Below, in pieces: positions 5,186-43,868 of a stretch of 64,000 nt of DNA. The translations under genes were made by a program, and so were the position numbers. The stretch is taken from positions 62,001-126,000 of the forward strand of contig JAUIJE010000020.1 of assembly GCA_030431455.1 (NCBI GenBank), read 5' to 3'. The notes below the pieces were generated by a model. It saw only the letters and a list, made by a program, of their open reading frames with translations, had not been told where the DNA came from and searched no databases. Each line of letters begins with the position of its first letter. Within the stretch, counting starts at the first letter, position 1. Origin of the DNA: a bacterium. GTDB taxonomy: Bacteria; Myxococcota; UBA727; JAUIJE01.

Positions 5186-7672
5186 TCAACCAGAGTTGCC
5201 GGGGCCTTTTTCCCCCGCTTCGTCGGCCAGGGGGCGGCGCAGGCGCAACTCGGCGTGCACCGGGATCGCCGCGCGGTCGGTCGGGACCACGAAGGTCTCG
5301 CCCACCCGCCAGCGTTCGCGCTGGTTGGAGAAGTGCGGGTGTTGGTAGTGGCCGCTCTGGCCGAGGTCGATGACCATGCGGCCCTCGACGGGGGAGGTCA
5401 TGTGGGCCATCAGCCGGAACACCGCCCCGCGATCCACCGGCAGGCCCCCCTCGGCCCGGATCGTCGTCGACCACCCGGACTCTTCTTGTTCGGCCACCTG
5501 GAACACCGCCCCCACCACCGGGGTCGAGGCCAACGCATTTTTGAACGTCAGCCGGTGCACGCTCCCCCAGCGCCAGTCCTGGGGCCCGGCGCTGACCTCC
5601 TCGACCAGCCGGTCGAGGGCCACCGCCGCCGCCCGCTCGACAAACCCGGCCAAGCCCTCCCGGTCCTTGGACCGGTAGTCGTCGAACAAGACCTGGTCTC
5701 GCCCCTGATGCTCTTCGAGAATCGCGTTCTCGATGATCATCTGGGTGGCGGGATCGTCCTGCAGGTACAGGGCGAAGTCCTCGCCCACGTGCACCGCCAA
5801 CACCTCATAGGTGAACGCCTCCAGCAGCCAGGTGAAGGGCAGCGCGCCCAGGCTCTCGGTGGTGTAGGCCCCGTCGAAGGTGCGCACATATTCGCAGAAC
5901 TTGCTCACCCGCCCCTCGTTGTGCCCCACCAACGCTTCGGGGCAATAGGTGCCAAGCACGGGGGCGAGGCGTTGGGCCTGGGGGCTGGTCACGTCTTGCT
6001 GCAGACCGCAGTATACAGCTTCATTGTGTTTGTGCCGGACGAGGTCGCGCAGCTTGTGGTCGATGCGCTGGGCCCGGTGCGGGGTGCGGCCGCCGAACCC
6101 ATAGGCGGCGGCGATGCGGTCGTCCTCGTCGATGCGCTGGTTGGCGGAGAAGACATAGCCGGTGGGGGGATTTTTGATGTAGGGCAGGGCGTCTTCGGGC
6201 AAAAACCCGCGCCAACCGGCGGTCTCGTGGGCGCCGTTGCGGGGGCGATCGCTGCGCTCGTCGCTGATGCGGAGGGGGATGCGGCCTGACAATGCATAGG
6301 CAATGTCGCCCCGGGTATCGGCGAAGATCCAGTTGAGGCTGGGCACGGCCAGGCCCCCCACCGCGGTGCGGGCCTCGTCGACGGTGCCGGCCGCGGCCAA
6401 GTCCCAGAACGCCAGCAGGCTGTCTTTGGCCTCGTCGGGGAAAAAGCCCGGCCAGAGCAGGGCGAACTGCGCGTCGGGCTCCATCTGGTTGCGGTAGGCC
6501 TCGGGGAGCATGGGGCCGAACAGGGTGGTCTTCCAGACCTCGCTGGTCTCGATTTGGCCGTTGACCACGAAGGATTGCATCCACGCCCCGAAAGGTTTGG
6601 CCTCGTCGTCGACGATGTAGCGATCGTCGCGGTCGGGATCGGTCTGGATGCGCACCAGGTCTTGGGTGTCGGCGTAGGACGCGGTGAAGGCAAAGCTCAC
6701 CGTGCGGTTGTGGCCCGCGACCACCGCGGGCACCCCGGGAAAGGTCGCGCCCACCACGTCGACCGGGCCGTAGGCGATGTGGGCGAGGTACACCGTCGAG
6801 GGCGCGGCGTGGCGCAGGTGGGGGTCGGCGCACAGCACGGGGTGGCCGTCGTTGGTGTGGGCCCCGGACACCGCCCAGGCGTTGGACGCGCCTTTGGGGA
6901 ATAGCTGGTCGAGGCGCCGGCCTTCGGTGGGGGGCGCGGGGGGCGGCGGCAACGGGGTGGGGGGCGTGAGGGGGCTCAAGCCCTCGGGCCGGAGGGGGGC
7001 GGGGTCCGGCGCGTCGGGCTCGTCGAGGTCTCGGAGGTGGGCCACGCCCCCGTCGTCGAGCGGGACGAGCAGCGCGTCGCGGCGGGGGTCGTCGGGGGCG
7101 AGGCGGGCGAGCACCCGGGCCCGGACAAACTCTTGGTCGAGGTCGCCGCTGAGCCGGAAGCTGTAGAGCCGAAAGATGGACAGCGCGTCGTAGACCGAAA
7201 ACGGTTTGAACGTGAGCCGCAACAAGCGCAGCTCGGCGGGCAGCCCCGCGTGGCTGGCCCCGTCGTTGACCCCCTGGACGTAGGCTTCCAAAATGCGCCG
7301 AAGCCGGGGGGAGAGCAGGCGCTCCTCGTCGCGCAACCGGTAGGTCATGAAGCGCAGCTGGCTGTCGGTGTCGAGGAAATCGCGCCCGAACAGTTCGGTG
7401 ATGCGGCCCTGGGCCGCGTGCCGCAAAAAATCGATCTGGAACAGGCGGTCCCGGGCGTGCACGAAGCCGAGGCCGTAGGCGGCGTCGGGCTCGTCCTGGG
7501 CGAAGATGTGCGGCACCCCCTCGTCGTCGACGACCACGTCCGCGCCGCGGTCGGGGTACGCGCCCCGGGCGAACACCGTCTGGGGCGCGTCGGCGGTCTC
7601 GGGCGGATAAAGCCAATCGAACAGGCTGCACCCCGGCCCCGCCACCGCCACCGTGGCCGCGATGATGGCCAT
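5186..7672 (-). CDS. Penicillin acylase (Ntn-hydrolase) family lipoprotein
   Basis: 828 residues. The start is the ATG whose product has a lipoprotein signal (MAIIAATVAVAGPGC, Cys15). Longer reading through the divergent YccF gene is rejected. The family makes a precursor cleaved into alpha and beta chains at an N-terminal nucleophile Ser; here the motif is KGASNAWAVSG with Ser263. Other family blocks are GVPHIFA, GLGFVHARDRLFQIDF, and the beta-chain start GHPVLCADPHL. A Pro-rich linker (residues about 235-255) precedes the cleavage site. The family hydrolyses amides of penicillins, N-acyl-homoserine lactones or other acylated amines. An exported lipoprotein form in this lineage could be quorum-quenching, antibiotic degradation or nutrient scavenging; the sequence does not decide. 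Confidence 0.93.
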   Translation of the reverse strand: MAIIAATVAVAGPGCSLFDWLYPPETADAPQTVFARGAYPDRGADVVVDDEGVPHIFAQDEPDAAYGLGFVHARDRLFQIDFLRHAAQGRITELFGRDFLDTDSQLRFMTYRLRDEERLLSPRLRRILEAYVQGVNDGASHAGLPAELRLLRLTFKPFSVYDALSIFRLYSFRLSGDLDQEFVRARVLARLAPDDPRRDALLVPLDDGGVAHLRDLDEPDAPDPAPLRPEGLSPLTPPTPLPPPPAPPTEGRRLDQLFPKGASNAWAVSGAHTNDGHPVLCADPHLRHAAPSTVYLAHIAYGPVDVVGATFPGVPAVVAGHNRTVSFAFTASYADTQDLVRIQTDPDRDDRYIVDDEAKPFGAWMQSFVVNGQIETSEVWKTTLFGPMLPEAYRNQMEPDAQFALLWPGFFPDEAKDSLLAFWDLAAAGTVDEARTAVGGLAVPSLNWIFADTRGDIAYALSGRIPLRISDERSDRPRNGAHETAGWRGFLPEDALPYIKNPPTGYVFSANQRIDEDDRIAAAYGFGGRTPHRAQRIDHKLRDLVRHKHNEAVYCGLQQDVTSPQAQRLAPVLGTYCPEALVGHNEGRVSKFCEYVRTFDGAYTTESLGALPFTWLLEAFTYEVLAVHVGEDFALYLQDDPATQMIIENAILEEHQGRDQVLFDDYRSKDREGLAGFVERAAAVALDRLVEEVSAGPQDWRWGSVHRLTFKNALASTPVVGAVFQVAEQEESGWSTTIRAEGGLPVDRGAVFRLMAHMTSPVEGRMVIDLGQSGHYQHPHFSNQRERWRVGETFVVPTDRAAIPVHAELRLRRPLADEAGEKGPGNSG

Positions 7673-25008: not shown

Positions 25009-26526
25009 TCACCTCGCTTCCTCGACGCTAACACGCCGCGGCACCGGCGGCTGCACCCGCACCCGGCACAGCGGGCCGGGCTTGAGGTCGCCGAGTTTGC
25101 CGCCGCTTTGCACCCAGGCCTCGCGCACCACCCGACCGGGGTCGTCGCACACCGCCACGGTACACGCCGAAAGTTGCCCCAAGCGCCGGGCCAGCCCGTA
25201 GTGGTGGGCGCGGGCCAGCGCGTCGTCGACGTCCCCGGCCCGGCCGGCGAAGGCCGCGTCCCGGGTGAGCAGCACATACCCGTCCTCGCCCACCCGGGGC
25301 GCGAACACCCCCTCGACGCCCAGGCCCCGCAACACCTCGGCCGCGAACTGCTCCGAGAGCTTCTCGCCCACCAGGTCCACCCGCCGATCGGTGCGGCCCA
25401 CAAAGTCGAGCCCGCAGGTCTGGCCAAAACGGCCGGTGGCGCGCACCCGATCGCCCGTGCGGTACCGCAAAAGACCGCCCGGCTGGGTGAGCACCACCTC
25501 GTAGGCGGTCTCGTCCTTCGCCCGCCACAGGGGGTGTACCTCCCCGGCCTCGTCGAGCAGCTCGAGCACCACCTGGTCGAGACAGGGCACCTGGCCGGGG
25601 CCCTGGGTGAGCGCGGGCACCGTCACCGGCCCCTCGGTGAGCAAGAGCCCTTTGCCCTGCACCACCGCGTGCGGAAACCACCCCCGCAATGTCTCTGCCC
25701 CCGACTGGGCAAAGCCCCGGTCCCAACAGGACACCAGGCGCAGCTGAGGCCACAGCTTTGTCCCGTCCCCGTCCGCCACCGCCCGCAGGGCGGCCTCGAC
25801 GAGGGCCGGCCGCGCCTTGTGTTCGTCGCGCATGGCCCGGGCCACCGCCTCGGGCGCGGCCCGGGCCACGTCGAGCACGGAGAGCAAAAAGGTCGGGCTC
25901 CACACGCTCACGATCTCGAGCTTACGCGCGGCGAGCAGGGCCGCGGCGGTGCGCGGCATGAAGCGGTCGGGGTCGGTCTCCCGCTCGATGCCGCGGGGCA
26001 TCACGAACAGCGGCCCGAGCAGCACCCGAAACAGCCCCGACATATAGGCGCGGTCGTCGTCGAGCCCCTGGTCGGCCACCGCGGGGGAGATGGAAAAATA
26101 AAACCGCGCAGACGAAAAGCCCGGCCCGTGCCGCACGATGTCGTCCACCCACACCGCGAACATCGCGCGAAAGGTGGCGAGCAGGGCGCGGTTGTAGGGA
26201 ATGTATTTTTTGGTGCCCGAGCTCCCCGAGGTCGGTTCCCACGCGCGCACCCGGCCCGGACACAATGCGTCTGCATCTCCCTGTTGCTGCGCGGCCGCGT
26301 AGGGGGCGACATCGTCCCAGGTGGCGAGGGGACAAGACTTCGCGAACTGTTCGTAGGAGGAAAAACCCACGCCTTTGTCGCGTGCGTACTGCGTGCGGGC
26401 CGCGGCCTGTCCGATGCGCTGGAGGACCGCGCGCTGGGCCTTTTCGGGGGCGGCGAGGGCGCGGGCTCGACGACGACGGGCCGGCCAGAGCACCGGCAGG
26501 AGCAGGGGGGCGAGATGCCCTAACAC
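25009..26526 (-). CDS. GH3-type acyl-adenylate-forming ligase
   Basis: 505 residues from GTG 26526. GH3 enzymes activate a carboxylic acid with ATP and join it to an amino acid or other amine. The ATP-binding motif SGSSGTKKYIPYN is a near-exact match to the GH3 motif, and later blocks YRTGDRVR (the Y-R/K-x-GD adenylation motif) and FVGRTDRRVDLVGEKLSE agree. In plants GH3 proteins conjugate auxin or jasmonate; bacterial homologues are poorly studied. Neighbours are a fatty-acid/sterol-type hydroxylase and a hexapeptide acyltransferase, so an acyl or sterol-like acid may be the substrate; inference. Confidence 0.9.
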   Translation of the reverse strand: MLGHLAPLLLPVLWPARRRRARALAAPEKAQRAVLQRIGQAAARTQYARDKGVGFSSYEQFAKSCPLATWDDVAPYAAAQQQGDADALCPGRVRAWEPTSGSSGTKKYIPYNRALLATFRAMFAVWVDDIVRHGPGFSSARFYFSISPAVADQGLDDDRAYMSGLFRVLLGPLFVMPRGIERETDPDRFMPRTAAALLAARKLEIVSVWSPTFLLSVLDVARAAPEAVARAMRDEHKARPALVEAALRAVADGDGTKLWPQLRLVSCWDRGFAQSGAETLRGWFPHAVVQGKGLLLTEGPVTVPALTQGPGQVPCLDQVVLELLDEAGEVHPLWRAKDETAYEVVLTQPGGLLRYRTGDRVRATGRFGQTCGLDFVGRTDRRVDLVGEKLSEQFAAEVLRGLGVEGVFAPRVGEDGYVLLTRDAAFAGRAGDVDDALARAHHYGLARRLGQLSACTVAVCDDPGRVVREAWVQSGGKLGDLKPGPLCRVRVQPPVPRRVSVEEAR

Positions 26527-26539
26527 CGTCGTGCCTTGG

Positions 26540-27184
26540 TCACGGGGCGGTGGCGCGCGGGGCGTATTTCTCGCGGGCCTTGACGTGGGTGCGGGGGTAG
26601 AGCACGGACCCGCCCTCGATCTCGGCGTCGGGGCCGATGACCACCCCCGGCCCGATCCGGGCCCCGGCCCCGATGAACGCGCGGTCGCCGATCTCGATGC
26701 GTTTGACGTAGAGCAGGATGTTCTTGCGGGTGCGCTTGACCAGGTGGCCGGACATGCCCGCGTCGTAGCCCATGACCACCTCGTCGCCGATGTCGAGCAG
26801 CGAGCGGTCCCCGAGGTGAAAACGCGGGGTCCAGTACACCCGCTGGCCAATGCGGCTGCCCCACAGGCGCAGCCACGCGGAGAACAGCCCGGGCACGATG
26901 CGCAGGGCCTCCTCCAAAAACGGAAACGCAATGTAAATGAGTTGGATCTGGTGTCCGCCCCACCACGACGAATACTTGTCGCCCACGAGGTGGCTCGGCC
27001 CTTCGCGCAGGGGGTGAAAGTGATTGTGCACCTTGAACGCCACCGGGGGCACCCCGTAGAGCAACAACAGCCCGGCCACGACGAACGCCGGGGAGCCTGA
27101 GGTCACAAACAGCATGAAGAACGCGGCCGCCCCCCCGATGACGGTGGCGGGGAACAGCGACAGGAGCAGGGACAGCGGGGTCAC
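26540..27184 (-). CDS. Membrane-associated left-handed beta-helix (hexapeptide) acyltransferase-like protein
   Basis: 214 residues from GTG 27184, which overlaps the hydroxylase stop as GTGA. N-terminal hydrophobic helices (about 3-50) are followed from residue 120 by hexapeptide repeats, for example LGDRSLLDIGDEVVMG, IEIGDRAFIGAGARIGPGVVIGPDAEIEGGSVL. That pattern forms the left-handed beta-helix of many acyl- and acetyltransferases. The catalytic His is not certain. With a membrane anchor and lipid-type neighbours it is a candidate acyltransferase acting on a lipid. Confidence 0.82.
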   Translation of the reverse strand: MTPLSLLLSLFPATVIGGAAAFFMLFVTSGSPAFVVAGLLLLYGVPPVAFKVHNHFHPLREGPSHLVGDKYSSWWGGHQIQLIYIAFPFLEEALRIVPGLFSAWLRLWGSRIGQRVYWTPRFHLGDRSLLDIGDEVVMGYDAGMSGHLVKRTRKNILLYVKRIEIGDRAFIGAGARIGPGVVIGPDAEIEGGSVLYPRTHVKAREKYAPRATAP

Positions 27185-27945
27185 GGGGGGAGCTTGCCCG
27201 CTCGGCGGTCAAAGGGAAAGAAAAGCTGGCGGCCGAGGGGGGCGGCGAAGGGGATGCCCAATGATGCTGGATCTTGTGTGCTGGCCTGGTAGGTGCCGTG
27301 CAGGCGGTCCCACCACGAGAGGTTGGCCCCGAAATTGACCTGGCTCGACTCGGTGCTGTGATGCCAGGCGTGGTCGGAGGGGAGAATGAGCACGGCGCTG
27401 AGCGCCCGGTGCAGGGCGCCGCCGCGGCGGGGGGTGAAGGGGCTGTGGCGCCAGAGGTCGAGGGCGGCGGTGAGGGCGGCGCCGAGGGCGAACCAGAACG
27501 GCTCGGACAAAAAATAGAGCAAAGCCCCCCCGACCCAGAGATAGACGATGAACAGGCTGGAGTAGAGGGTGTTGCGGCTGGTGCCGAGCACGTCGAGGGT
27601 GCGCAGGGTGTGGTGGACCCGGTGCAGGGGCCACAATGTATTTGTGTGGAGCAGGCGGTGGTTCCAGTAGTAGAGGTAGTCGACGGCCACGAGGTTGAGC
27701 AGCAGCGCCGCCCACCCCGGCACCTCGAGGGCGCCCCGGCCGGCGGGGACCAGCCAGGCCAGGCCCGCCACCACCAGGCCCACCTGCAGCAAGGGGATGA
27801 GCGTGCCTTGCACCAGCAGCCCGACGAGGTCGAGCGTCCATTCCGCGCGGGTGCGCGCGCGCAGCTGGGCGCGGCCCTCGGCGGTGGCGAGCACGCCGAG
27901 GGTGAGGGCCCAAAACGCGACCAGGATGATCCAGGCGGTGTCCAT
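27181..27945 (-). CDS. Fatty acid hydroxylase / sterol desaturase superfamily membrane protein
   Basis: 254 residues, four to five hydrophobic helices. The diiron His motifs are all visible in order: YYWNHRLLH, HRVHHTLR and HAWHHS, with a preceding DYLYYWNH. The superfamily includes sterol C4/C5 oxidases, fatty-acid alpha-hydroxylases and alkylglycerol monooxygenase. It is the first gene of a chain (hydroxylase, hexapeptide acyltransferase, GH3 ligase, lipoprotein) linked by a 4-nt overlap and by gaps of 13 and 4 nt, and follows the VOC gene by 52 nt. Exact substrate unknown. Confidence 0.92.
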   Translation of the reverse strand: MDTAWIILVAFWALTLGVLATAEGRAQLRARTRAEWTLDLVGLLVQGTLIPLLQVGLVVAGLAWLVPAGRGALEVPGWAALLLNLVAVDYLYYWNHRLLHTNTLWPLHRVHHTLRTLDVLGTSRNTLYSSLFIVYLWVGGALLYFLSEPFWFALGAALTAALDLWRHSPFTPRRGGALHRALSAVLILPSDHAWHHSTESSQVNFGANLSWWDRLHGTYQASTQDPASLGIPFAAPLGRQLFFPFDRRAGKLPP

Positions 27946-31140: not shown

Positions 31141-32025
31141 ATGATCGGAACACGCACCATGAGTTGGGGGTTGGCCCTTTGTGTGGGAGTGGCGACGTAC
31201 GCTCCCCAAGCGGACGCGTGTGACGCTGTGCTCGCGGTCGAGGACAGCCTGCCGGTGGGTCATCGCCTCGCCTTCAGCACGCCGGCGGTGGAGTCTTCGG
31301 ACCTCGGTCTCCCCGGTGGTCTGTGGTGGTTCGCCGACGGGACGCTCGACCCGGACGCGTTCGTTCCCGCCGAAGACAACGTCGACCAGTCCCCCCTGGA
31401 TGTCGTCTACCGTCGCGCCGGCTACACCGCGTTTCGCGTGCCACCCAACGCCGCCGAGGGCGACAGCTGGACCAGCGCCGATCGCACCCTCACCGCGGGC
31501 CGCGCCGAGGACCTCATCGAGCCGGCGAGCGGGCCCTTTGTCACCAACGTTGAGGTCACGGTCCAGACTGACCACCACGTCGTCGACGGCTGCGCCGCGT
31601 TCAGCCCCACCGAGCAATATGACTTTGTCCAGTTCACCGCCGACTTCGACAGCGACGTGCAGGTGGCGTTTGACATCTGGATGGTCGAAGGCGCGAGCAC
31701 CGCCGTGCCCGACGAGGACCCGTCGCTCCATTTGTCGGCGAGCCATCGCGTGCCCCTGCCCATTCGGTTGCGCACCCCGGGGCCGCACACGCTGATCATC
31801 CAGCCCGTCGACGTGTACCGTGGTGTGTTGCACGAGCCGTTGTTTGTCGAGATGGACGGCGCCACCGAGGCCGTCATCACGTCTGGCGTCGGATGCTCGA
31901 TGGGCCAAGCGCCATCGGTTTCGCTGCTTGCGCTGGCGGGGCTCGTGGTCGCCCTGCGTCGTCGCCGACGCTCGTTGTCGTGTTCCCGACGACTTTGCCG
32001 CGTCGCGTTTTGGGATGCGCTCTAA
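31141..32025 (+). CDS. Exported protein with MYXO-CTERM-like sorting tail
   Basis: 294 residues. A GAGGAG site lies 6 nt before ATG 31141, which is preferred to the ATG two codons earlier. A signal peptide (RTMSWGLALCVGVATYAPQADA) exports a beta-rich protein. Near the C-terminus is GCSMG, then a hydrophobic helix (SVSLLALAGLVVAL) and RRRRR, the plan of MYXO-CTERM signals processed by rhombosortase or myxosortase-type enzymes. Unusually, about 17 residues (SLSCSRRLCRVAFWDAL) follow the Arg cluster, where these proteins normally end, so the stop may have been lost. The stop overlaps the convergent gene end. Confidence 0.8.
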   Translation: MIGTRTMSWGLALCVGVATYAPQADACDAVLAVEDSLPVGHRLAFSTPAVESSDLGLPGGLWWFADGTLDPDAFVPAEDNVDQSPLDVVYRRAGYTAFRVPPNAAEGDSWTSADRTLTAGRAEDLIEPASGPFVTNVEVTVQTDHHVVDGCAAFSPTEQYDFVQFTADFDSDVQVAFDIWMVEGASTAVPDEDPSLHLSASHRVPLPIRLRTPGPHTLIIQPVDVYRGVLHEPLFVEMDGATEAVITSGVGCSMGQAPSVSLLALAGLVVALRRRRRSLSCSRRLCRVAFWDAL

Positions 32026-32936
32026 TGTTCGGTGTCGGGGTCGACGTCGGGGTCGGTGGCCTGGGGGGCTGAACAGCTCGGGAAGTGGGCGATGGCGGGA
32101 TGCGCGGCCCAGGCCTCGGCCTTGGTTTGGCCCTCCGGCAACGCTTGCCACGTCGAGGTCACCGCGATGCGCCAAGCGTCGACCAGGTCGTCCAGGGACG
32201 CGCCGTAGGCGGCTTCGAGGCTGGCCTCGTCGACGGGGACCGGTCCCGAGGTGAGCGACACCAGGGTGTCGAGCCCGTGGGCGGTCACGAGGAAGTCCAC
32301 GAAGGAGAGCCGAATCGAATACGCCTGGGGCATGCAGCGGAAGTTGAGCGCGAGGTGGTTGCGGGCGAGGCGCGCGGGAGACACGAGTTGGTTGGTCTCG
32401 ATCCAGTGGCCGACCGCCACCGTGGGCTCGGTGCCAAATAGGGGAAAGCCGGTGGAGCCAAAGCCGATCGAACGGGCCAATACCTCGGCGAGGCCCTCCT
32501 CGAAAAAGAGCGCGAGGTTGGTCTGGCGCTCGGGGGTTTGCCAGTGGGGCAAGCGCAGGGCGTGCACCATCTCGTGCACCAGCGACGCGTCGTAATCCCC
32601 GCCCGCGCCCGGGAAGCGGTAGAGCAAAATCGTGCCCGTGTCCGGGTCGACGGTGGGCACATGGGTAGAGTCCCCTTCGCCCATCAACCGCACCCGCAGG
32701 GGGAGCTGGGCCTCGGCCCCGGGCAGGCGCTCGACCAGGGCGGGCAACGCCGCCACCGCGCGCTCGCGCACGGGTTCGACATCGGCGGTGTGCTGCCGCG
32801 AAACGTCCTCGACCACGACCTCGGGGGCCATGCGCTGGTTGGGCGGAGGGCCGTCTTCGGTGGCCGAGCCACAGCCCAAAAACGCGGCCAACGCCAAACC
32901 CGCGCAGAGGGGGCCCCGGTAACGATGCAGTGCCAT
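32022..32936 (-). CDS. Lipoprotein metallopeptidase-like protein (HExxH)
   Basis: 304 residues, lipoprotein signal PLCAGLALAAFLGC. A zinc motif LVHEMVHAL (His121, Glu122, His125) followed 22 residues later by FFEEGLAE (Glu147 or Glu151 as third ligand) marks a gluzincin-like peptidase. The start lies 22 nt after the Rieske gene stop, so it probably is the last gene of the oxygenase operon. Substrate unknown; the catalytic reading is inference from motif spacing. Confidence 0.8.
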   Translation of the reverse strand: MALHRYRGPLCAGLALAAFLGCGSATEDGPPPNQRMAPEVVVEDVSRQHTADVEPVRERAVAALPALVERLPGAEAQLPLRVRLMGEGDSTHVPTVDPDTGTILLYRFPGAGGDYDASLVHEMVHALRLPHWQTPERQTNLALFFEEGLAEVLARSIGFGSTGFPLFGTEPTVAVGHWIETNQLVSPARLARNHLALNFRCMPQAYSIRLSFVDFLVTAHGLDTLVSLTSGPVPVDEASLEAAYGASLDDLVDAWRIAVTSTWQALPEGQTKAEAWAAHPAIAHFPSCSAPQATDPDVDPDTEH

Positions 32937-32958
32937 GTGGTCCCCCGTCTGCCGCCGA

Positions 32959-34056
32959 TCAAATCCAGAACGTGATGTCGCGCGACTTTTCCGGCAGCGT
33001 GCGCGGGTCTTGGCCCTCGGCCAGCGCGTCGCGGATCTGTTCGACAAAGATGTGAATGGTGTCCGCCTGGGTGTGGGCGAACTTGTCCCCGTACTTTTTG
33101 ATCACGTCCATCTGCTGGCCGAGGATCTCCACGTCCTGGTCGATGACCATCTGGCCCTGGCGCCGCACGATGAAGCGGGCCGGCCAACTGAAGATGCCGT
33201 AGTTGAACGTGAGGTCGGTGTACACCAATGTTTCTTCATCGGTCACGGGCACGGACTGGGACGTGATGATGAAGTGCCGCTTGGGGCCGAACACGTAGCT
33301 CACCGACGTCACATTGGGCATGAAGAAGCTGTCGGTGTGCTGGATCTTGTGCCCCCCGGGGTTCAAGAACCACTTGAACCAGCCGAGGTTGTCGGTCTCG
33401 CCTTCGTAGTTGACGTGCACTTCGCCGTTTTTGCGCACGATGTGGGCGTTGATTTTTTGGTCCCGCGCGTCGCGGAAGATGACGGGGTGGACGAAGACCG
33501 TGTGCGGGATGTCGATGAAGTTCTCCGCGCAGTTGGTCACGTTGTTCATCATGCGGTTCTGCAGCCGCACGGTGGTGTACCCCTTGTCCCCATAACAAGG
33601 CATGGCGAAGGGCGTGATGTCCGCGGGCCCGTCTTTTTCCGGCGCGTCCTCGTCGCGCACGCGCACGTAGACGAAGTCGTCTTGCTCACAGACTTCGTGC
33701 ACCAGCGCGCGCCGGGCGATGCCCCCTTTTTTGAACTGCCCCTTTTCACAGGGCACGGCCACGACCTCGCCCTCGCCGTCGTAGGTCCACCCGTGGTAGG
33801 GACAGCGCAGACACCCGTCGGGGGTGCGGCTGCCCTTCGACAGGGGCGCGGCCCGGTGCATACACCGATCGCGCAACGCCACCGGCTTTCCGTCCGGGCC
33901 GCGGAATATCGCCAAGTCCTCGTCGAGCACCTTGCGGCTGAGCACATTTTGGGGCCCGAGCTCGTGAGACTCGCACACCACGTACCAAAAGCTCCGCACC
34001 GTGAGCCCGGCGGTGGTGGCGGGGGCGGTCTGTCCGGCCGCGTCTTGGGGGCTCAT
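32959..34056 (-). CDS. Rieske non-heme iron oxygenase (terminal oxygenase)
   Basis: 365 residues. ATG 34056 overlaps the ferredoxin stop as ATGA, so it is chosen over an ATG three codons upstream. The Rieske [2Fe-2S] site is complete (Cys65-x-His67 and Cys85-x2-His88, as DRCMHRAAPL and RCPYHGW). The mononuclear iron site is also complete (FIDIPHTVFVH, D-x2-H-x4-H). It should therefore be a true oxygenase of the aromatic/steroid/pheophorbide-oxygenase type, taking electrons from the ferredoxin encoded just upstream. Substrate unknown; no aromatic-catabolism genes are near. Confidence 0.95.
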   Translation of the reverse strand: MSPQDAAGQTAPATTAGLTVRSFWYVVCESHELGPQNVLSRKVLDEDLAIFRGPDGKPVALRDRCMHRAAPLSKGSRTPDGCLRCPYHGWTYDGEGEVVAVPCEKGQFKKGGIARRALVHEVCEQDDFVYVRVRDEDAPEKDGPADITPFAMPCYGDKGYTTVRLQNRMMNNVTNCAENFIDIPHTVFVHPVIFRDARDQKINAHIVRKNGEVHVNYEGETDNLGWFKWFLNPGGHKIQHTDSFFMPNVTSVSYVFGPKRHFIITSQSVPVTDEETLVYTDLTFNYGIFSWPARFIVRRQGQMVIDQDVEILGQQMDVIKKYGDKFAHTQADTIHIFVEQIRDALAEGQDPRTLPEKSRDITFWI

Positions 34057-34367
34057 CCGTCCCACCGATCTTCACAGTGCGCGCGCAACACCAGGTCTGC
34101 CTGCACATCGATTTGGCAGGCGAGCCGCGCGTTCTGTACGCCGTCGGCGTACAGCTCCAAAATCTCTTGTTCGTCCTCGTCGGGAGGCGTGAGTTTGTCC
34201 CCGCCCTCGACGACCTCGACCACGCAGGTGCCGCAGATGCCGGTGCGGCAGCCGAACAGCACCGGGCTGTTCTTCACGTCGAGGTCCTCGGACAACACCT
34301 TGCCCGGCGGGACCTGCACCGCGGGGTGGTCGTCGTCCGAGAATGTCACGGAATGGCGCGTGGTCAT
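34053..34367 (-). CDS. Plant-type [2Fe-2S] ferredoxin
   Basis: 104 residues. Cluster ligands are Cys40, Cys45, Cys48 and Cys84 in LFGCRTGICGTCVVEV and RLACQ, the CX4CX2C...C pattern of plant/adrenodoxin-like ferredoxins. It is a cytoplasmic electron carrier, most likely for the two Rieske oxygenases and perhaps the diiron proteins of the same operon. ATG 34367 overlaps the stop of the upstream diiron gene and the stop overlaps the Rieske start. No ferredoxin reductase gene lies in the window's operon. Confidence 0.95.
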   Translation of the reverse strand: MTTRHSVTFSDDDHPAVQVPPGKVLSEDLDVKNSPVLFGCRTGICGTCVVEVVEGGDKLTPPDEDEQEILELYADGVQNARLACQIDVQADLVLRAHCEDRWDG

Positions 34368-35611
34368 GCCGGGGCCCAGGTGCGAATGGGGGCCAGGCCC
34401 CGTCCATACATGCGGCGGTTGCGGCGCAGGGCCGCGTCGACGCTCGCCTTCTCCATCACCGCCATCTTTTTGTTCTCGGCGCTCACAAAGTCGAGGCCGG
34501 CCACGTATTTCTTGTAGCTCTCCCGCGCGGTCTGGTGCGTCTCCTGGGCGAGGTGGAACGACTCGTTGTCTTTGCAGAAGCTGTCCCAGATGAGCTCGCG
34601 CGCGGCCTTGTCGTCGAGGCCAAACGCCCGGCTGCGCAACACCTTGTACACCGCGGCGAACGCCGCGGGGTCAAACCAGAAGACGCCGTTGACCATGCTC
34701 GAGAAGTTGCGGTGGTCTTTCTGGCAGCCCTTGACCCCGAGGTTGGTCACGAACTTCTCGAACGCGCTGGGGGCGGGCAGGCTCTTGACCACGTCGTGGC
34801 TGACGATGGTCGAACTGTTGAAGTGATAGCTCTCGTCACAGAAATGGTAATAGCTGATCTTCGACGGAATCGGCGCGTCCTCTTTGCGCTTGGTCTCGCC
34901 GGTGACCGGGTCGGGCTCCCGGTCGTACTTGGTGTAGTACTGGCTCAGCTGGTGCTGGACGATCTTGCCCGACAACGTGCGGATGCCGCGCACCAAGAAA
35001 TACTGACAAGCGATGAAGGCGTTGCCCGCGCTGAGCAAGCCGAAGGTGCGCAGCTGCAGCCGCTTGAACTTCCGGCGAAACGGCGAGCTGTCCTGGTAGA
35101 TCATCGTCTCGTGAAAAGGCCCGCGCATCGGGTAGGTGAACACCCGCTGGCCGAACACCTCGGCTTCGACCGCCTCGCTCACCTTCTTGAACGCCGCGAT
35201 GTGGGCGCGCTCCTGGCTCGACTCGAGGTCGAGCATGTCGCACACGGTGCGAAAGTCCTCGATGCCGAACAGCCCCGCGGCCGAGGTCTGGTTGAAGTAG
35301 ATGGTCGCGATCTCCGCGCTGATGATTTGCGCGTAATACGCCACCCAATAGAGCTGGTTGAGCAACACCCGCTGCGACTCACTCGCCTGGTCCCAGATGG
35401 GCGTGCCGTAGCAGAGCGAAAACTTCTCGGGGTTCCAGTATTCGTCTTTGCACGCCGCGTACTCGAACGCCCCCGCGGCCTCGTCGAGCAACTGGGTGTG
35501 GTCCTGCTTTTTGTTGCGGCGCAGGTTGATCGCCACCTTCTTGGCGGTGGGCACATCGTCGAGCAGGGAGGGCTCGGGGCGGCGCAGGCTGTGATTCGTC
35601 GGTGCGCTCAT
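34364..35611 (-). CDS. Ferritin-like diiron protein, AurF-type oxygenase candidate
   Basis: 415 residues from ATG 35611. Helical. Carboxylate/His ligands of a ferritin-like diiron site can be matched to SAEIATIYFNQ, LESSQERAHIAAF, and DESYHFNSS, consistent with the p-aminobenzoate N-oxygenase (AurF) superfamily, though the family assignment needs a profile search. The enzyme would use O2 to hydroxylate or N-oxygenate a substrate. It sits between a second diiron gene (16 nt upstream) and the ferredoxin (overlap of 4 nt), so electron supply is at hand. Confidence 0.8.
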   Translation of the reverse strand: MSAPTNHSLRRPEPSLLDDVPTAKKVAINLRRNKKQDHTQLLDEAAGAFEYAACKDEYWNPEKFSLCYGTPIWDQASESQRVLLNQLYWVAYYAQIISAEIATIYFNQTSAAGLFGIEDFRTVCDMLDLESSQERAHIAAFKKVSEAVEAEVFGQRVFTYPMRGPFHETMIYQDSSPFRRKFKRLQLRTFGLLSAGNAFIACQYFLVRGIRTLSGKIVQHQLSQYYTKYDREPDPVTGETKRKEDAPIPSKISYYHFCDESYHFNSSTIVSHDVVKSLPAPSAFEKFVTNLGVKGCQKDHRNFSSMVNGVFWFDPAAFAAVYKVLRSRAFGLDDKAARELIWDSFCKDNESFHLAQETHQTARESYKKYVAGLDFVSAENKKMAVMEKASVDAALRRNRRMYGRGLAPIRTWAPA

Positions 35612-35627
35612 GGCACGGCCTCTCTGC

Positions 35628-36584
35628 TCACACGCAGTCGGCGACGGGGAGGGGGGCGAACAGTCCACGTCCCTCGAGATCGTCGAGCAACGGGGCCGAG
35701 TCGCGGGTGGTCATCAACTTCTTCAACAGGGCCAAGCGGGTCTGGGACTGGGCTTCGCCGCCCAAATCTGTGAGCAGCTGGACCTTCTGGGCCCGGCTCA
35801 GGCCGCCCCGCTCGATGTCCACCGCCGCGAGCACGGTCTGCGGCCCGCTCTGCACCATGCTCAAGAACTTCACCAACGCCTCGACGATGGGCCCGCGCGC
35901 GGCGTCGGGGATGCCCGCGGATTCGACCAGGACCTTGCCCGAGCCATGGTGGCGGGCCTCGTCCTCGAGGATGCCCCGCAACACGTCGCGCAGGTTGGGC
36001 CGCAGGCAGGCCTCGGCGAGCTGGCGGTAATGGGTCAGGCCCCAGCCCTCGAGCACCACCTGAATGATGAACACCAGGACCGCGCGATCGCCGTGGTCGA
36101 TCAGGTCCTGCAACAGATGGTGAAAGGGGTTGTCGGTGACGAGCTCGTCCGCGTCCTCGATGTGGGTGGCCACCGCGTGCAGGTGGCGCGCCTCGTCGGC
36201 GGCGAACAGCGCATAGAGCATGCGCTCCTCGGTGCTCGGCGCGAGCAGGGCCATCTTGGCCCCGAAGGTGAGGCCCGACTTCTCGATGAAGTACGCCTCG
36301 TGCAGCATCGCCCGCGAGAGCCGGTCGCGAATCGCCCGCTGGGTGGGCTCGTCGGCGTCGGTGTAGAGCGCGGTCTGGTGCAGGTAAAAATGTTCGGCGG
36401 TGAAGGCGGGGACCGCGTCGCTCTCGTCGTGCTTCGGTTTGCGATCGCCGGCGGCCTTGTCGAGGGCGGCGCCGAGCACGGTGCGCAGCTTGTGCTCGGG
36501 GGGCAAGTGCCCGAGCTCGAGCCCGGTGTCGACCACCACCGTGGGCGGCGGCCGGTCGGTGGAGAGCTTTTTGAGCGCGCTCAT
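35628..36584 (-). CDS. Ferritin-like diiron protein, second copy
   Basis: 318 residues from ATG 36584, which overlaps the preceding gene stop (ATGA). The diiron pattern is clean: Glu in LHEAYFIEKSG, E-x2-H in ADEARHLHAV, Glu in LEGWGLTHYRQL, and E-x2-H in LEDEARHHGSG. This is a four-helix ferritin-like fold. It differs much from the neighbouring diiron protein, so it is not a tandem duplicate. It may be an oxygenase, N-oxidase or decarbonylase-type enzyme. Conserved ligands suggest it is active. Confidence 0.85.
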   Translation of the reverse strand: MSALKKLSTDRPPPTVVVDTGLELGHLPPEHKLRTVLGAALDKAAGDRKPKHDESDAVPAFTAEHFYLHQTALYTDADEPTQRAIRDRLSRAMLHEAYFIEKSGLTFGAKMALLAPSTEERMLYALFAADEARHLHAVATHIEDADELVTDNPFHHLLQDLIDHGDRAVLVFIIQVVLEGWGLTHYRQLAEACLRPNLRDVLRGILEDEARHHGSGKVLVESAGIPDAARGPIVEALVKFLSMVQSGPQTVLAAVDIERGGLSRAQKVQLLTDLGGEAQSQTRLALLKKLMTTRDSAPLLDDLEGRGLFAPLPVADCV

Positions 36585-37330
36585 GACGTGACCTTTTTGG
36601 GCAGCGTCGCGGGGCTGGCCGGTCGACGCTTCTTCCACCAATATTGAAACGGCATCGCCCAGGTCATCTTGGCGGTGCAGACCAGCTCCGAGCCGTCCAT
36701 CCAGGTGGGGTTTTGTTCTTCAAAGAACGCCACCCGCGGGATCACGCGTTGCTCGTCGGTGATGCCGGCCACACCATCCTTGAGTTGGCCTTGGGATTTG
36801 TCGAACACCACCAAGCCACGGTCTTGGTCGTAGGCCTCGCCAAACATGTCCGCGGCGAAGGTGTCCATGATCGCCTGCTCAAACGCGGGGGTCGGCTCTT
36901 CATATCGTGGATAGTGAAGGGGGAAGTTGTTCGCCATCAGCAGATAGGTCTTGTAGCCCTTGCTGATCAAGAACCAATAAAACGGCGTGAACGGCGCCTT
37001 GGCCTTCTGGCGGAACAGGTATTTCAAAAACTCGATCCCGAGCGAGCCCTGGCCCCAGAAATCCTTTTCGATCACGGTGTCGCCGGAGAACACCCCGCGC
37101 ACACGCTTCTTATCGACGACGAAGTCGGTGTTCTTCAGGGTCGAGAAGCCGTGAATGACATCGTCTTCGGGGGTGTAGAGCAAGATCACGTGGTCTTTGG
37201 CCGACAGGTCCTTTTGGAACGCGGCTTCGCTCACCAAGTCATAGTACTTGTGAAAGATGCCGAACATCCGCGTCCGGTCGTCGTCGGACAGGCTCTTGAT
37301 CGCCACCGTCTTGGCGTTCAGGCGGGCCAT
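36581..37330 (-). CDS. GNAT-fold protein of the oxygenase operon
   Basis: 249 residues. The N-terminal half has a GNAT-like order: VILLYTPEDDVIHGFSTLKNTDF, then GVFSGDTVIEKDFWGQGSLGIEFLKYLF (acyl-CoA loop analogue G-Q-G-S-L-G). Next is FTPFYWFLISKGYKTYLLMANNFPLHYPRY. Similar folds occur in N-acyl amino acid and autoinducer synthases, so it could attach an acyl group to an amine. The family is not firm. It overlaps the upstream Rieske gene by 13 nt and the following diiron gene by 4 nt, so it belongs to the same pathway. Confidence 0.72.
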   Translation of the reverse strand: MARLNAKTVAIKSLSDDDRTRMFGIFHKYYDLVSEAAFQKDLSAKDHVILLYTPEDDVIHGFSTLKNTDFVVDKKRVRGVFSGDTVIEKDFWGQGSLGIEFLKYLFRQKAKAPFTPFYWFLISKGYKTYLLMANNFPLHYPRYEEPTPAFEQAIMDTFAADMFGEAYDQDRGLVVFDKSQGQLKDGVAGITDEQRVIPRVAFFEEQNPTWMDGSELVCTAKMTWAMPFQYWWKKRRPASPATLPKKVTS

Positions 37331-38601
37331 GGGGTCACCCCTTCGGTGTCGGTGGATTCTTCGAAGTTGCCCTCGGTGTCGGCGCGGGTCTCGCCCTGTT
37401 CGAAGGACACCGCGTCCTCGAAGTTGCGCGCGCTCTCGAAGCTCGACCCCGCCACGTGGGGGCCGGCTTTGGTCTTCTCGTCGAAGGGGTTGAGGGTGGG
37501 CTCGTCGAAGCTCGCGTCCTCCTGGCGGGGTTTGCGGCGCAGGGGCACGAGCTTGCGTTCGACCGACCACTCCTCCCAGGTCACGGTGGCCATGCGCTCG
37601 AGGTGTTTGATGAAACGAATGATCGAGCGGTCGGCGGCGATGGGATGTTTGAACTTCCACTTGATGGTCTGGAAGATCTTGGTGTCCCCGTGGGCGAAGT
37701 AGTCGCCGACGAGTTTGGTCAAGAACAGCAGCACCCGGTTGACCAGCCAGCCGACGGGGCCCCGTCGACGATCGGTGATGAGCACGGTCTGGCCCAGGGC
37801 CTTGCCGTCGGACGTGGGGCGCAGACAAAAGATGATGTGGAAGTGCAAAAAGTCCGGGCCCACGGTGACGCTGCCGGTGCTCCCGGTCTGGTAGGCCATC
37901 TTGTAGGTCAATGGGCCTGCATAGAAGCGCCCGAGGAAGCGCAAAAACGGGTTGGACATCGGGATGTGGGTGGTGTTGTCGAAGGTGATGAGCTGGGGGG
38001 TGCGCTCCTGCACGTCAAAATGCAGTTTGACCGGGAGATTGTGCACGGTGGTGAAGTGCTGCTCGTCGATGGCGTTGACCATGACGATGTTGGGGTGGCA
38101 GCCTTTTTCGAACGCCGCGCCGTGTCCCCAGTCGACCTCCTGGCCGGCGAGCTCAGGCACCTCGAAGACGTCGTGGGTGGGTTCGCGCCCGTTGTAGATC
38201 CAGATGAGCCCGTAGCGTTCTTTCACCGGCCAGGTCTGGATGCGCAGGTCGAGGGGTTTGTTCTGGCAGGGGATCGACGTCAGGGTGCCGTCGGGCTCGT
38301 AGGTCCAGCCGTGGAAAAAGCAGCGGAGGTTGTCGCCTTCGACCATGCCCTCGGCGAGGTGGGCGCCCATGTGGGGGCAATAGGCGTCGACCGCGCGCAC
38401 GTTGCCGTCGTGGCCGCGGTACAGGGCGAGCTCGCGGCCGAGGAAGTTGAGCGCGGTGACCTTGCCTTTGGCGAGGTCGGCGGAGCGCAAGGCCCAGTAC
38501 CAACCCTCGACCGCTTTGTCGGTGCGACCGAAGACGTCGGGGTCCGCGATGTTGACCGGCGTGGACGACGAAGCGGCGGCGGGTTGGGTTTGAGCGACCA
38601 T
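37318..38601 (-). CDS. Rieske non-heme iron oxygenase, first gene of the operon
   Basis: 427 residues from ATG 38601 with an AAGGAG site upstream. Rieske ligands Cys75, His77, Cys94 and His97 (AYCPHMGAHLAEG, RCFFHGWTY), and iron site NAIDEQHFTTVH (D-x2-H-x4-H) are intact. About 45 C-terminal residues after the catalytic domain are acidic and repeat-like (SFDEPTLNPFDE, SFESARNFEDAVSFEQGE), an unusual tail. It is clearly different from the second Rieske enzyme of the operon, so the two probably act on successive steps. Confidence 0.95.
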   Translation of the reverse strand: MVAQTQPAAASSSTPVNIADPDVFGRTDKAVEGWYWALRSADLAKGKVTALNFLGRELALYRGHDGNVRAVDAYCPHMGAHLAEGMVEGDNLRCFFHGWTYEPDGTLTSIPCQNKPLDLRIQTWPVKERYGLIWIYNGREPTHDVFEVPELAGQEVDWGHGAAFEKGCHPNIVMVNAIDEQHFTTVHNLPVKLHFDVQERTPQLITFDNTTHIPMSNPFLRFLGRFYAGPLTYKMAYQTGSTGSVTVGPDFLHFHIIFCLRPTSDGKALGQTVLITDRRRGPVGWLVNRVLLFLTKLVGDYFAHGDTKIFQTIKWKFKHPIAADRSIIRFIKHLERMATVTWEEWSVERKLVPLRRKPRQEDASFDEPTLNPFDEKTKAGPHVAGSSFESARNFEDAVSFEQGETRADTEGNFEESTDTEGVTPWPA

Positions 38602-39860: not shown

Positions 39861-40937
39861 ATGAACGCCCCCCGCCCTTCCTCTTCTTCCCCTGACACCG
39901 GCGACCTGTCCGCGGGCCGGCCCACCTTGGCCCAGACCTGGGCGCGCCGCGCAGTGACATTCCCGCTGTATCTCGTCCTGTGGGCGGGCCTGGCCGCGCT
40001 GCTCCCGGGGCTGTTGGCGCTGGGCCTGCTCGTCGACGGTTTGTCCCGCCGCACGGTGTTGGCGCGCTTTTTCCTGTTCGTGTTTGTGTACCTCTCGCTC
40101 GAGGTGCTGGGCATGGCGCGGGCGGCGTTGTTGTTTGTGCGCCACCCCCTGGGAGGCGAGCGCTTCCTGGCCAAGAACTTCGCGTTGCAGTCCTGGTGGG
40201 CCGGCTCGTTGCTGGGCGCGGCCAGCGCTCTGTACCGCTTTCGGTTGTATGTGACCGGCCAAGCCGAGGCCACGCCCGGCCCCTACGTGTTGCTGTGCCG
40301 CCACGTCTCGGTGGGCGACACCTTGCTGCCCTCGGCGTACGTGTCGCGCGCGCTGGGCATTCAGTTGCGTTACGTGCTCAAGCGCGAGCTGCTCTGGGAC
40401 CCTTGCCTCGACATCGTGGGCCAACGGCTGCCCAATGCCTTTGTGCGGCGGGGAAAAGGCCGGGCCGAAGCCGAGCTGCAAAAGCTCCGCGGCCTGTGCC
40501 ACGACCTCGGGCCCACCGATGGGGTGTTGAGCTTTCCCGAGGGCACGCGGTTCTCGCCGGCCAAGCGGCAGCGCCTGCTCCACCGCCTGGCCGACAAGGG
40601 CGACGAGGCCGGTCTCGCCCGGGCCACCGCCTTGACCCACACGTTGCCCCCCCGCCTGCTCGGGACCTTGGCGTTGCTCGAGACCGCGAAGACCGACGTG
40701 GTGTTCTGCGCGCACACCGGGTTCGAAGGGCTCACCCGCATCGGTGACCTCATCCGGCCGTCGATGATGGGGCGCGCGATCCGCATCCACTTCTGGCGGG
40801 TGGCGGCCCAGGCGGTGCCGTCCGACGAAGACGCGCGCACCGCGTGGCTGATGGAACAATGGCAACGCGTGGACCAGTTCGTGGCCGACGCGGGGCTGCT
40901 CGACGACGGCGAGACCATGCCCGCGCTGGGGGCCTGA
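39861..40937 (+). CDS. PlsC-type lysophospholipid acyltransferase
   Basis: 358 residues. Several N-terminal hydrophobic helices (about 31-60 and 65-92) precede the acyltransferase domain. It has the H-x4-D motif [11 protein letters not shown] and the FPEGTR motif [12 protein letters not shown]. These transfer an acyl chain to glycerolipids or similar acceptors at the membrane. The CxxH-like spacing is normal, the long N-terminal membrane part is not. It follows the MshEN gene by 30 nt on the same strand; functional link unknown. Confidence 0.9.
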
Positions 40938-40941
40938 CCGC

Positions 40942-41307
40942 TCAGGCCAATTTGGCCCCCAACCACAAACCCGCCGCGCCCCCCAGCAGGCAGGCCACCG
41001 CGGTGGCCCCCAGGTAGAGGGCGGCCTTGCCCACCTGCCCCTGCTCGAACAGGCCAAGGGTCTCGAGGTTGAACGTCGAGTACGTGGTGAAGCCCCCACA
41101 AAAGCCGGTGGTGAGCAGCAGGCGCACGGTGGGGGAGGCTTTTTGGGCCAAGCCGTATTTGAGCAGCACCGCGAGCAGGATCGATCCCATGACATTGGCG
41201 GCGAACGTGCCCCAAAAGAAGCGCTCGTGGTTGAGCCACTGCGACACCATGTGCCGCAGCACCGCCCCCGCGCCGCCCCCGACAAAGACCGCCAACATCG
41301 CTGCCAT
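40942..41307 (-). CDS. crcB: Fluoride exporter CrcB/Fluc
   Basis: 121 residues with four TM helices. Family signatures: [16 protein letters not shown] near the start, [15 protein letters not shown], and the pore motif [18 protein letters not shown]. CrcB forms dual-topology fluoride channels that lower cytoplasmic fluoride. No fluoride riboswitch is recognisable in the 95 nt between this gene and the divergent lipoprotein gene. It converges with the acyltransferase gene with 4 nt between stops. Confidence 0.95.
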
Positions 41308-41402
41308 GGCCGCACCCTATCCCAGTTGACCAGGTCGAGGCGGTCGCCCCGCGCACACGCGCGATCGACGCGGACCGGCTATCCTGCCCCCGGAGGGTGC
41401 GT

Positions 41403-43868
41403 ATGACTGCGGCGGGTCGAGTGATGTGGACGGCGGTGGTGTTGTCGGCGGCGCCGGGATGCAGCCTGTTCTTCAACCCCACCATCAACGCGTGTGACGC
41501 CGACGAGGACTGTCCCGCCGGAGAACAATGCACGGTGGACGGCCTCTGCGTCGAGCTGTCCGGCGACGGGGATGGCGACGGGGACGGGGATGGTGACGGA
41601 GATGGCGATGGCGACGGAGATGGCGATGGCGATGGCGACGGGGATGGCGACGGGGACGGCGATGGCGACGGGGACGGCGACGGGGACGGCGACGGGGATG
41701 GCGACGGGGACGGCGATGGCGACGGAGATGGGCATGGAGACGGTGATGGCGACGGGGACGGGGATGGCGACGGGGACGGTGACGGCGACGGGGACGGGGA
41801 CGGCGACGGCGACGGGGACGGGGATGGCGACGGGGACGGTGATGGCGACGGGGATGGGGATGGGGACTGTTTGACCCCGCCCAACGGGGCGTTGTTGTCG
41901 AACTGGTCGCCGGGTCCCCCCGCGGTGTTTGGGCAGACCTGGTCGGTCAGCGGTGATGTGAGCTGCGGGGCGACATGCACGTTCTACCCGGGGGGTGCCG
42001 TCTATGGCGAAGGGGCGTTTGTGCACGAGGCGCTTCGGCCCGGCACCGGCACGTCCGAGATGGTGTGCACCGATGGGAACGGGAGCCGCGAGGTGTACCA
42101 AGCGGCCGGCGCGGTGAGCTGTACGGCCTCGGGCCTCAGCGGCGATGTGTTGATCACCGACCAGACCGGGGTGGACAACCTGTCGAACGGCGGGGGCTGT
42201 TTCACCGTCGCTGGCGACGTGACCATCACCGGCCCCGCGGTGACCTCGCTGCTGCCCCTGTACGGCTTGGCCGGCGTCAGCGGTCGGCTTGTCATCTCCG
42301 AGACCTCCCTGGTCAACCTCGACGGGTTGGAGCTTTTGGGCAGCGTCGGCTCCTTGGTGGTGGGGGAGGCCAACACCGGCAACGACGCGTTGCTCGATGT
42401 CGACGCGCTCTTCTCGGTGGCCAACCAGCCGGCGGAGCTTTCGGTGGAGCAGGCGCCCGTGCTTGACCGGCTCTGGGGCATTCGTCACATCGGGTTGGTG
42501 GACGGCGATGTGCGCTTGACCGCGCTCCCCGTCGGGTTGCCCGTGGACTGGGCGCTCTACACCGTCACCGGGACCTTGCGCCTGTCCGCGCTGGCCGCGC
42601 TGACCGACCTCGACGCCTTGGCCAACCTCTCCTCTGCAGGCACATTGGAGTTGGCCAACCTTCCCGGCTTGGGGGACATCGACCTGCCCAACCCCCCTGA
42701 CCTCGATCGCTTGGTGCTCGAGAACAACAACGCCCTCACCACCATCACCGCCTTCCCGGTGGCGGTCGCGGGGCTCGACGAGTTGACCGTGCGCAACAAC
42801 AACCAACTCAGCAGCCTGGCGGGACTGGCCGGCGCGGCCTCGGGCACGGTGGACGCGCTCACGGTGTCCGGCAACACCGCGCTCTCGGTGCTCGACCTCG
42901 ACGCGGCGGTGTCGGCGGACCTCACCGTGCAGAACAACCCCGGTCTGCTCGCCATCGGCGACAACCTCTTGCCCGATTCATTCGCCGAGGTCGTGGTCAG
43001 CGAGAACACCCTGCTCACGGACCTGGGCGGCGTCGCCAACCTCGACGAGTGTGCCTCGCTGGCCATCACCAACAACCCCGCGCTCACCAACCTCGCGCTC
43101 CAAGTCGAAACCGTACACGGCAATTTGGGCATCACCGACAACCCCGGCCTGGTGCAGCTCACGCTGGACAACCTCACCACCGTGGGCGAGGACCTCGTCA
43201 TCTCCGGCAACTTCAACGTCTCCGGCCAGCTGCAGCGCGCCAGCGCGCCGGCCCTGCTCGACGTGGGCAGCGACCTTGTCGTGGGCCAGGTCACGGCCGG
43301 GCCCGGCGAGCCGGGCATCTCGTTTCCCCAGCTGCAGAACATCAACGGGGCCCTGGTGATCCAAGGCTGTGGCCTCGAGGGGAACAACAACCACACCCTC
43401 GATTTCTCGAGCCTGACCACCGCGTCGTCGGTGTGGATTCAGCAAAACAGCCTGTTCAATGACGTGACGCTCAACTTCTCGTCGCTGTCGGCGGTGGCCA
43501 CGACCTTCGAGGTCTCGGACAACCTCGGCACGTTCTTCACCGCGTTCGCCACCTCCGAGCCCGGCATGGTGACGTTCCGCTACGTCAACAACCCGAGCGT
43601 GCTCGCGTTCACGGACACGGGCCGGCTTGGGCTCGGGTTGGTCACCGGCGTGTTCGAGGTCACCGGCAACACCGCCATGGCCGACTTCAACATCACCACC
43701 AACCCCGACATCCCCAGCGGGGTCACGGTGGGCATCGACGGCAACGGCCCGGGCACGATGCTGTGCGCGGGCAATGGGTTGGCGGACACGCCCTTCGGCA
43801 TCAACTACTTCATCAGCCAGTACGTCATCGGGACCGTCGACCCCAACCAGTGTGAAGGCGGGGCCTGA
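41403..43868 (+). CDS. Large lipoprotein with long Gly-Asp linker and leucine-rich-like repeats
   Basis: 821 residues from ATG 41403, 5 nt after GGAGGG. Signal and lipobox: [14 protein letters not shown]. After a Cys motif ([19 protein letters not shown]), a Gly-Asp repeat of about 51 dipeptides fills residues 54-155. The rest is a solenoid of about 22-residue units with Leu/Val positions and Asn turns ([45 protein letters not shown]), similar to receptor-L or leucine-rich repeats. It is probably a surface-exposed binding or adhesion protein. Starts opposite crcB. Confidence 0.85.
41562..41867 (+). repeat. Gly-Asp coding repeat, about 51 dipeptides
   Basis: 306 nt of GGN-GAY hexanucleotides inside the lipoprotein gene (one unit reads Gly-His). 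Synonymous codons vary between units, so it is an amino-acid-level repeat more than a perfect satellite. The antisense frame reads Pro-Ser/Val-Ala repeats, not a gene. Confidence 0.95.

Follow-up and report, generated by a model that had tools for sequence, protein, structure and literature searches.

Thirty-six cyanobacterial gene clusters have been described as "Rieske-containing" (Eusebio et al. 2021; PMC8406957). Each encodes between two and four Rieske proteins and one homologue of CylC, and most encode a sterol desaturase as well. They have no neighboring carrier protein and are orphans, without a known product (PMC8406957). A few noncyanobacterial homologues were already noted in that study, which also raised the possibility that some CylC homologues may perform other oxidations. 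No product was reported for this class in the literature that we searched, which included few subscription papers. Dimetal-carboxylate halogenases of the CylC/NocO type carry the motifs ExxQExxH and HxxDExxH (PMC12871659), with a glutamine in place of the AurF aspartate (PMC12101540). Another relevant enzyme is OlsH, a bacterial GH3 protein that makes N-acyl ornithine from ornithine and free fatty acids in an ATP-dependent reaction, without ACP or CoA (PMC12493201).

We analyzed a window of 64,000 nucleotides from a bacterium of the phylum Myxococcota (contig JAUIJE010000020.1, positions 62,001 to 126,000). A first-pass annotation had described seven genes joined by overlaps of 4 to 13 nt and gaps of at most 22 nt. 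All seven ORFs (R1-GNAT-FER-AUR-FDX-R2-LIPO) are present exactly so on the minus strand from 38601 to 32022, where four junctions overlap, by 13, 4, 4, and 4 nt, and two leave gaps, of 16 and 22 nt. However, the cluster continues beyond this range. An all-against-all comparison of loci revealed that conserved families also occur at 27945 to 25009, on the same strand and 5 kb downstream of R2, where three genes (FAH, HEX, and GH3) had been missed. In gene order, the features are:

37318 to 38601, minus strand: R1, a KshA/SdmA-like Rieske oxygenase of 427 aa (Pfam Rieske, 7.7e-23)
36581 to 37330, minus strand: GNAT, a GNAT-fold protein of 249 aa (unassigned in Pfam and NCBIfam; AlphaFold fold)
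35628 to 36584, minus strand: FER, a ferritin-like protein with a 2-His/4-Glu diiron ligand set (Ferritin_2, 5.5e-5, just below the cutoff)
34364 to 35611, minus strand: AUR, an AurF-fold protein of the dimetal-carboxylate halogenase (CylC/NocO) type (motifs, fold, and clade)
34053 to 34367, minus strand: FDX, a plant-type [2Fe-2S] ferredoxin of 104 aa (Fer2, 6.9e-10)
32959 to 34056, minus strand: R2, a VanA/DdmC-like Rieske oxygenase of 365 aa (Rieske, 2.5e-24; VanA_C, 6.5e-9)
32022 to 32936, minus strand: LIPO, a lipoprotein with an HExxH motif (HEMVH), 22 nt after R2 (Peptidase_MA_2 at 0.017 only)
27181 to 27945, minus strand: FAH, a membrane protein of the fatty-acid hydroxylase/sterol desaturase family (PF04116, 3e-23)
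26540 to 27184, minus strand: HEX, a hexapeptide-repeat acyltransferase with a hydrophobic N terminus (Hexapep, 3.6e-9)
25009 to 26526, minus strand: GH3, an adenylate-forming acyl-amide synthetase (PF03321, 4.2e-25; GH3_M, 5.1e-8)

Sequence comparison gives good support for assigning this cluster to the orphan Rieske-containing class of CylC-homologue clusters. It encodes two Rieske proteins (R1 and R2), a sterol desaturase family protein (FAH), and a single CylC homologue (AUR) that falls in the clade of the class. No PP-binding domain (PF00550) was found on the 127-kb contig, in keeping with the missing carrier protein of the class. The first-pass annotation had seen no known catabolic operon in this gene combination, which is the one already described for these orphan clusters (PMC8406957). 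In our tree, 28 AUR proteins, 12 of them from cyanobacterial loci with the cluster, form one clade (100/100), apart from eight other CylC homologues. The window's protein is placed near a planctomycete sequence and one from its own phylum, with weak support. Among 292 cyanobacterial genomes, 18 have a member of the clade, at >600 bits compared with about 250 bits or less for other CylC homologues, and 12 cyanobacterial AUR loci carry the same gene families as the window. The window's genome has a single full AUR match. To our knowledge, no member of this clade has been assayed.

The conserved genes lie in two same-strand blocks, 38601 to 32959 and 27945 to 25009. Between them are LIPO, a plus-strand gene without an assigned family, a purine nucleoside phosphorylase family gene, a plus-strand acetyl-CoA hydrolase/transferase family gene, and a short gene without an assigned family. 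Because 5 kb of DNA, with unrelated genes on either strand, separates the blocks, their joint expression is uncertain. A search for sigma-70 promoter-like sites gave none, the number of terminator-like sites did not exceed expectation, and the surroundings of the cluster showed no ferredoxin reductase gene. HEX overlaps FAH by 4 nt and also comes after FAH in relatives. Upstream of R1 are genes for a PlsC-type acyltransferase (39861 to 40937) and a CrcB fluoride channel (40942 to 41307), neither of which shares a family with the genes of the compared loci L009 to L024. A lipoprotein-like gene at 41397 to 43868 encodes a long Asp-Gly repeat, from an 18-bp tandem repeat of about 17 copies (41561 to 41867), followed by an LRR-like part.

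The first-pass observation was confirmed. The two Rieske proteins and the ferredoxin were supported by Pfam. The CxH..CxxH and NxxDxxHxxxxH motifs of R1 are in 26 of 26 homologues, the R2 ligand motifs are in 21 of 21, and the four-cysteine pattern of FDX is in 27 of 27. R1 aligns with its cluster homologues at 45 to 54% identity, and it has an acidic C-terminal extension of about 60 residues that is absent from its relatives in the alignment. Of the two diiron proteins, FER has a ligand set (E...ExxH and E...ExxHH) that is complete at 2-His/4-Glu in all 28 homologues. Pfam matches of FER (Ferritin_2) and AUR (AurF) are below the cutoffs and there is none for GNAT, but AlphaFold models support the GNAT and AUR folds. 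PDB sequence searches with the AUR, GNAT, and FER profiles were uninformative. The peptidase did not hold its place: no match to LIPO was found in any of 16 related loci or in 12 further loci that were searched. Because of this, we judged LIPO to be a neighbor, outside the conserved set.

The GNAT model (pLDDT of 90, pTM of 0.85) predicts a GNAT fold with confidence. A Foldseek search matched it to AAC(2')-Ia (5e-6), and it superimposes on NatD with a Z score of 13.1 (2.7 Å over 151 residues). Inspection of the alignment by eye did not find the Q/RxxGxG/A acyl-CoA loop; WGQxxL is at that place and is not strictly conserved. The donor may be something other than CoA. The acyl-homoserine lactone synthase LasI matches the GNAT model with a Z score of 11.4, but it ties with many GNAT proteins and is uninformative on donor or product.

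Related clusters are widespread but sparse. A single AUR search of about 85,000 species found 14 loci, at 52 to 63% identity, in Elusimicrobiota, Planctomycetota, Melainabacteria, Pseudomonadota (Accumulibacter, Tahibacter, and an alphaproteobacterium), Cyanobacteriota, and Bdellovibrionota. Some of the host names may be incorrect, because metagenome-assembled genomes are the source of several loci, among them those of Elusimicrobia, Planctomycetota, and Melainabacteria. Two further loci came from the window's own phylum. All or most of six core genes (R1, GNAT, FER, AUR, FDX, and R2) occur together in 28 loci, which represent six or more phyla, with their order and orientation shuffled among relatives. 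Scattered genes in relatives would have counted against the first-pass proposal, but the genes are linked there. The repeated finding of the six enzyme genes as a group in different phyla excludes chance association. In 29 loci, several of them cut by contig or fetch ends, the families were counted as follows: R1, 26; GNAT, 27; FER, 28; AUR, 28; FDX, 27; R2, 21; FAH, 24; HEX, 21; GH3, 20; and SDR, 14. FAH-HEX-GH3 comes directly after R2 in most relatives. In one relative from the same phylum (L010), all ten are collinear and uninterrupted (R1-GNAT-SDR-FER-AUR-FDX-R2-FAH-HEX-GH3).

The window lacks SDR, for which the genome had no close match either (the best of 27 hits had 34% identity over two thirds of the query). 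We rejected the idea that this best match is the missing part, located elsewhere. Pairwise distances of the nine other families track those of AUR (Spearman correlations of 0.55 to 0.74, Mantel P ≤ 0.0015), which fits shared inheritance. AUR was full length in only three of 195 same-phylum genomes. Such a patchy distribution could reflect horizontal transfer or losses in several lineages. The same-order genomes G005, G007, G009, and G011 to G015, which belong to one family, are 0.3 to 1.8 Mb, compared with 7.7 Mb for the window's genome. Several relative loci carry an extra amidohydrolase gene, often with PAP2 and SnoaL-like genes. This Amidohydro_3 protein of about 700 aa is encoded at 6438 to 8546 of L015, where it ends in a C-terminal Mpo1-like part, and similar genes are in L016, L018, L019, L022, and L024.

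With moderate confidence, we think that the cluster, a member of the Rieske-containing class split in two, most likely builds an oxidized fatty-acyl amide or amino lipid. GH3 has the nucleotide motifs TSGSSGTKK and GLLRYRTGD (motifs I and III are clear, and motif II reads LTEG), and its only NCBIfam match is OlsH (NF052613), at 32.2 bits against a cutoff of 620. OlsH is also the only NCBIfam model matched by the GH3 proteins of the clusters. The histidine boxes of FAH are in 24 of 24 homologues, and its only NCBIfam match is OlsE (NF052566), at 64.4 bits against a cutoff of 475. GNAT relatives are in 79 of 193 same-phylum genomes, and in 13 sampled loci of GNAT paralogues outside the cluster, GH3 was a direct or near neighbor of GNAT in 10 and an R2-like Rieske protein was present in six. 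This smaller module of GNAT and GH3, often with an R2-like Rieske protein, occurs in many same-phylum genomes outside the halogenase-type cluster (L046, L051, L052, L055, and L057, and also L047, L048, L054, L056, and L058) and may be a simpler related lipid pathway. We favor an acyl-amide or amino-lipid product because of these weak matches of GH3 to OlsH and of FAH to OlsE, together with the GNAT-GH3 neighborhood and no carrier. Because the OlsH and OlsE matches are far below the cutoffs, the substrate and the amine are guesses.

In the proposed pathway, GH3 would activate a free fatty acid with ATP and join it to an amine, with no need for a carrier protein. AUR could then functionalize an unactivated C-H bond of the chain, by hydroxylation or by chlorination, the latter perhaps cryptic. 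Additional hydroxyl, keto, or unsaturated groups would come from the membrane enzyme FAH and from R1, R2, and FER, these three being supplied with electrons by FDX. Acyl transfer would be the task of HEX and GNAT. The order of the steps, the identity of the amine, and the presence of a halogen are what we infer.

The role of AUR separates several readings. The first-pass annotation had suggested an O- or N-oxidized, possibly acylated product. Acylation is plausible, but N-oxidation by AUR is made less likely by its halogenase motifs, ESSQERAH at residue 130 and HFCDESYH at residue 256 (ExxQExxH and HxxDExxH), both present in all 28 homologues. If AUR were an amine oxygenase of the AurF/CmlI type, the cluster would be an N-oxidation pathway, and the fold is the same: the AUR model matches AurF (3chi) with a Z score of 18.4 (3.7 Å over 287 residues) and CmlI with a Z score of 17.3. 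However, AUR has Q133 where AurF has D135, at the position preceding the glutamate of ExxH, glutamine is found in all homologues, and this is the difference described for halogenases (PMC12101540). The score with the Pfam AurF model (PF11583) is only 14.2 bits (E value of 0.024) against a cutoff of 29.6, and the other AurF-like matches in the genome lack ExxQExxH. We consider N-oxidation very unlikely. Judged by its motifs, AUR is of the halogenase type and not an N-oxygenase, although these motifs mark the family only. C-H functionalization is the better guess because AUR carries the motifs of the halogenase subfamily. A different reading keeps the cluster class but makes AUR an oxygenase or desaturase, so that the product is a halogen-free lipid whose fatty-acyl part is polyhydroxylated or carries keto groups. 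Halogenase motifs do not specify an activity, other oxidations by CylC homologues have been proposed (PMC8406957), and a long branch parts the AUR clade from the other CylC homologues. Even so, the glutamine of ExxQExxH is kept throughout the 28 homologues, and we see a halogen-free product as possible but not probable. A bolder version of the favored pathway is a carrier-protein-free route in which GH3 makes a lipid amide that AUR chlorinates untethered and that the Rieske pair and second diiron enzyme oxidize, giving oxidized halo-amino-lipids, sparsely distributed over at least six phyla. This version is speculative and, as a whole, unlikely.

The Rieske proteins invite a reading as sterol or hopanoid modification, or as a steroid breakdown pathway. 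R1 and R2 have SdmA as their best NCBIfam match (86.8 and 67.6 bits), a KshA structure tops the PDB list for R1, and these KshA/SdmA-like proteins are accompanied by a sterol desaturase family protein and, in relatives, by SDR. However, the SdmA model (NF052579) has a cutoff of 600, KshA_C scored 15.4 against 23.3, no sterol or ring-cleavage gene was among the neighbors scanned, and GH3 and the CylC homologue have no evident place in such a pathway. This makes it highly improbable. Neither Rieske protein reaches the cutoff of a characterized pathway family (SdmA or KshA_C). This check went in favor of the first-pass proposal of a biosynthetic or tailoring cluster, which was borne out. A catabolic reading was rejected, with no ring-cleavage genes seen and the Rieske families below cutoffs.

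For the oxidized fatty-acyl amide or amino lipid that we favor, the make-up of ten genes, their occurrence across six or more phyla, and the presence of GH3 provide a concrete chemical hypothesis for an orphan class. An enzyme able to halogenate free lipids would be a useful tool for C-H functionalization. Outside cyanobacteria, the question can be approached in cultured carriers, for instance Tahibacter aquaticus. Elsewhere in the window's genome (G000), a second GH3 gene (179443 to 180330) adjoins an AurF-like gene (178698 to 179054) on contig C16, at about 176 to 187 kb. This locus (L003, 177198 to 180554) is flanked by PP-binding domains at 176227 and 186546 and is possibly another biosynthetic cluster.

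Among known systems, AUR shares the AurF fold and both motifs with CylC and NocO (PMC12101540). However, the substrate of CylC is an ACP-bound chain, and genes for fatty-acid activation adjoin those of its close homologues, whereas no carrier protein was found on the window's contig. AUR shares the overall fold of the N-oxygenases AurF and CmlI and differs from them by the change from D to Q and by low sequence similarity. With the OlsH ornithine lipid pathway of Singulisphaera (PMC12493201), the likeness is a bacterial GH3 enzyme with a probable role in linking a free fatty acid to an amine, and FAH weakly resembles OlsE, an ornithine lipid hydroxylase. The differences are that similarity is far below the family cutoffs, that OlsI and OlsG, the partners of OlsH in its operon, were not seen at the window's cluster, and that this cluster has many extra oxidases. 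The closest likeness is to the clusters of Eusebio et al. (2021), which likewise have two or more Rieske proteins, a sterol desaturase family protein, one CylC homologue of the same AUR clade, and no carrier protein. The window's cluster differs in its host outside cyanobacteria, its two blocks, its missing SDR, and its GH3, a term that is absent from PMC8406957. The class itself is already known, chiefly from cyanobacteria; what is new here is the split layout and the clue provided by GH3.
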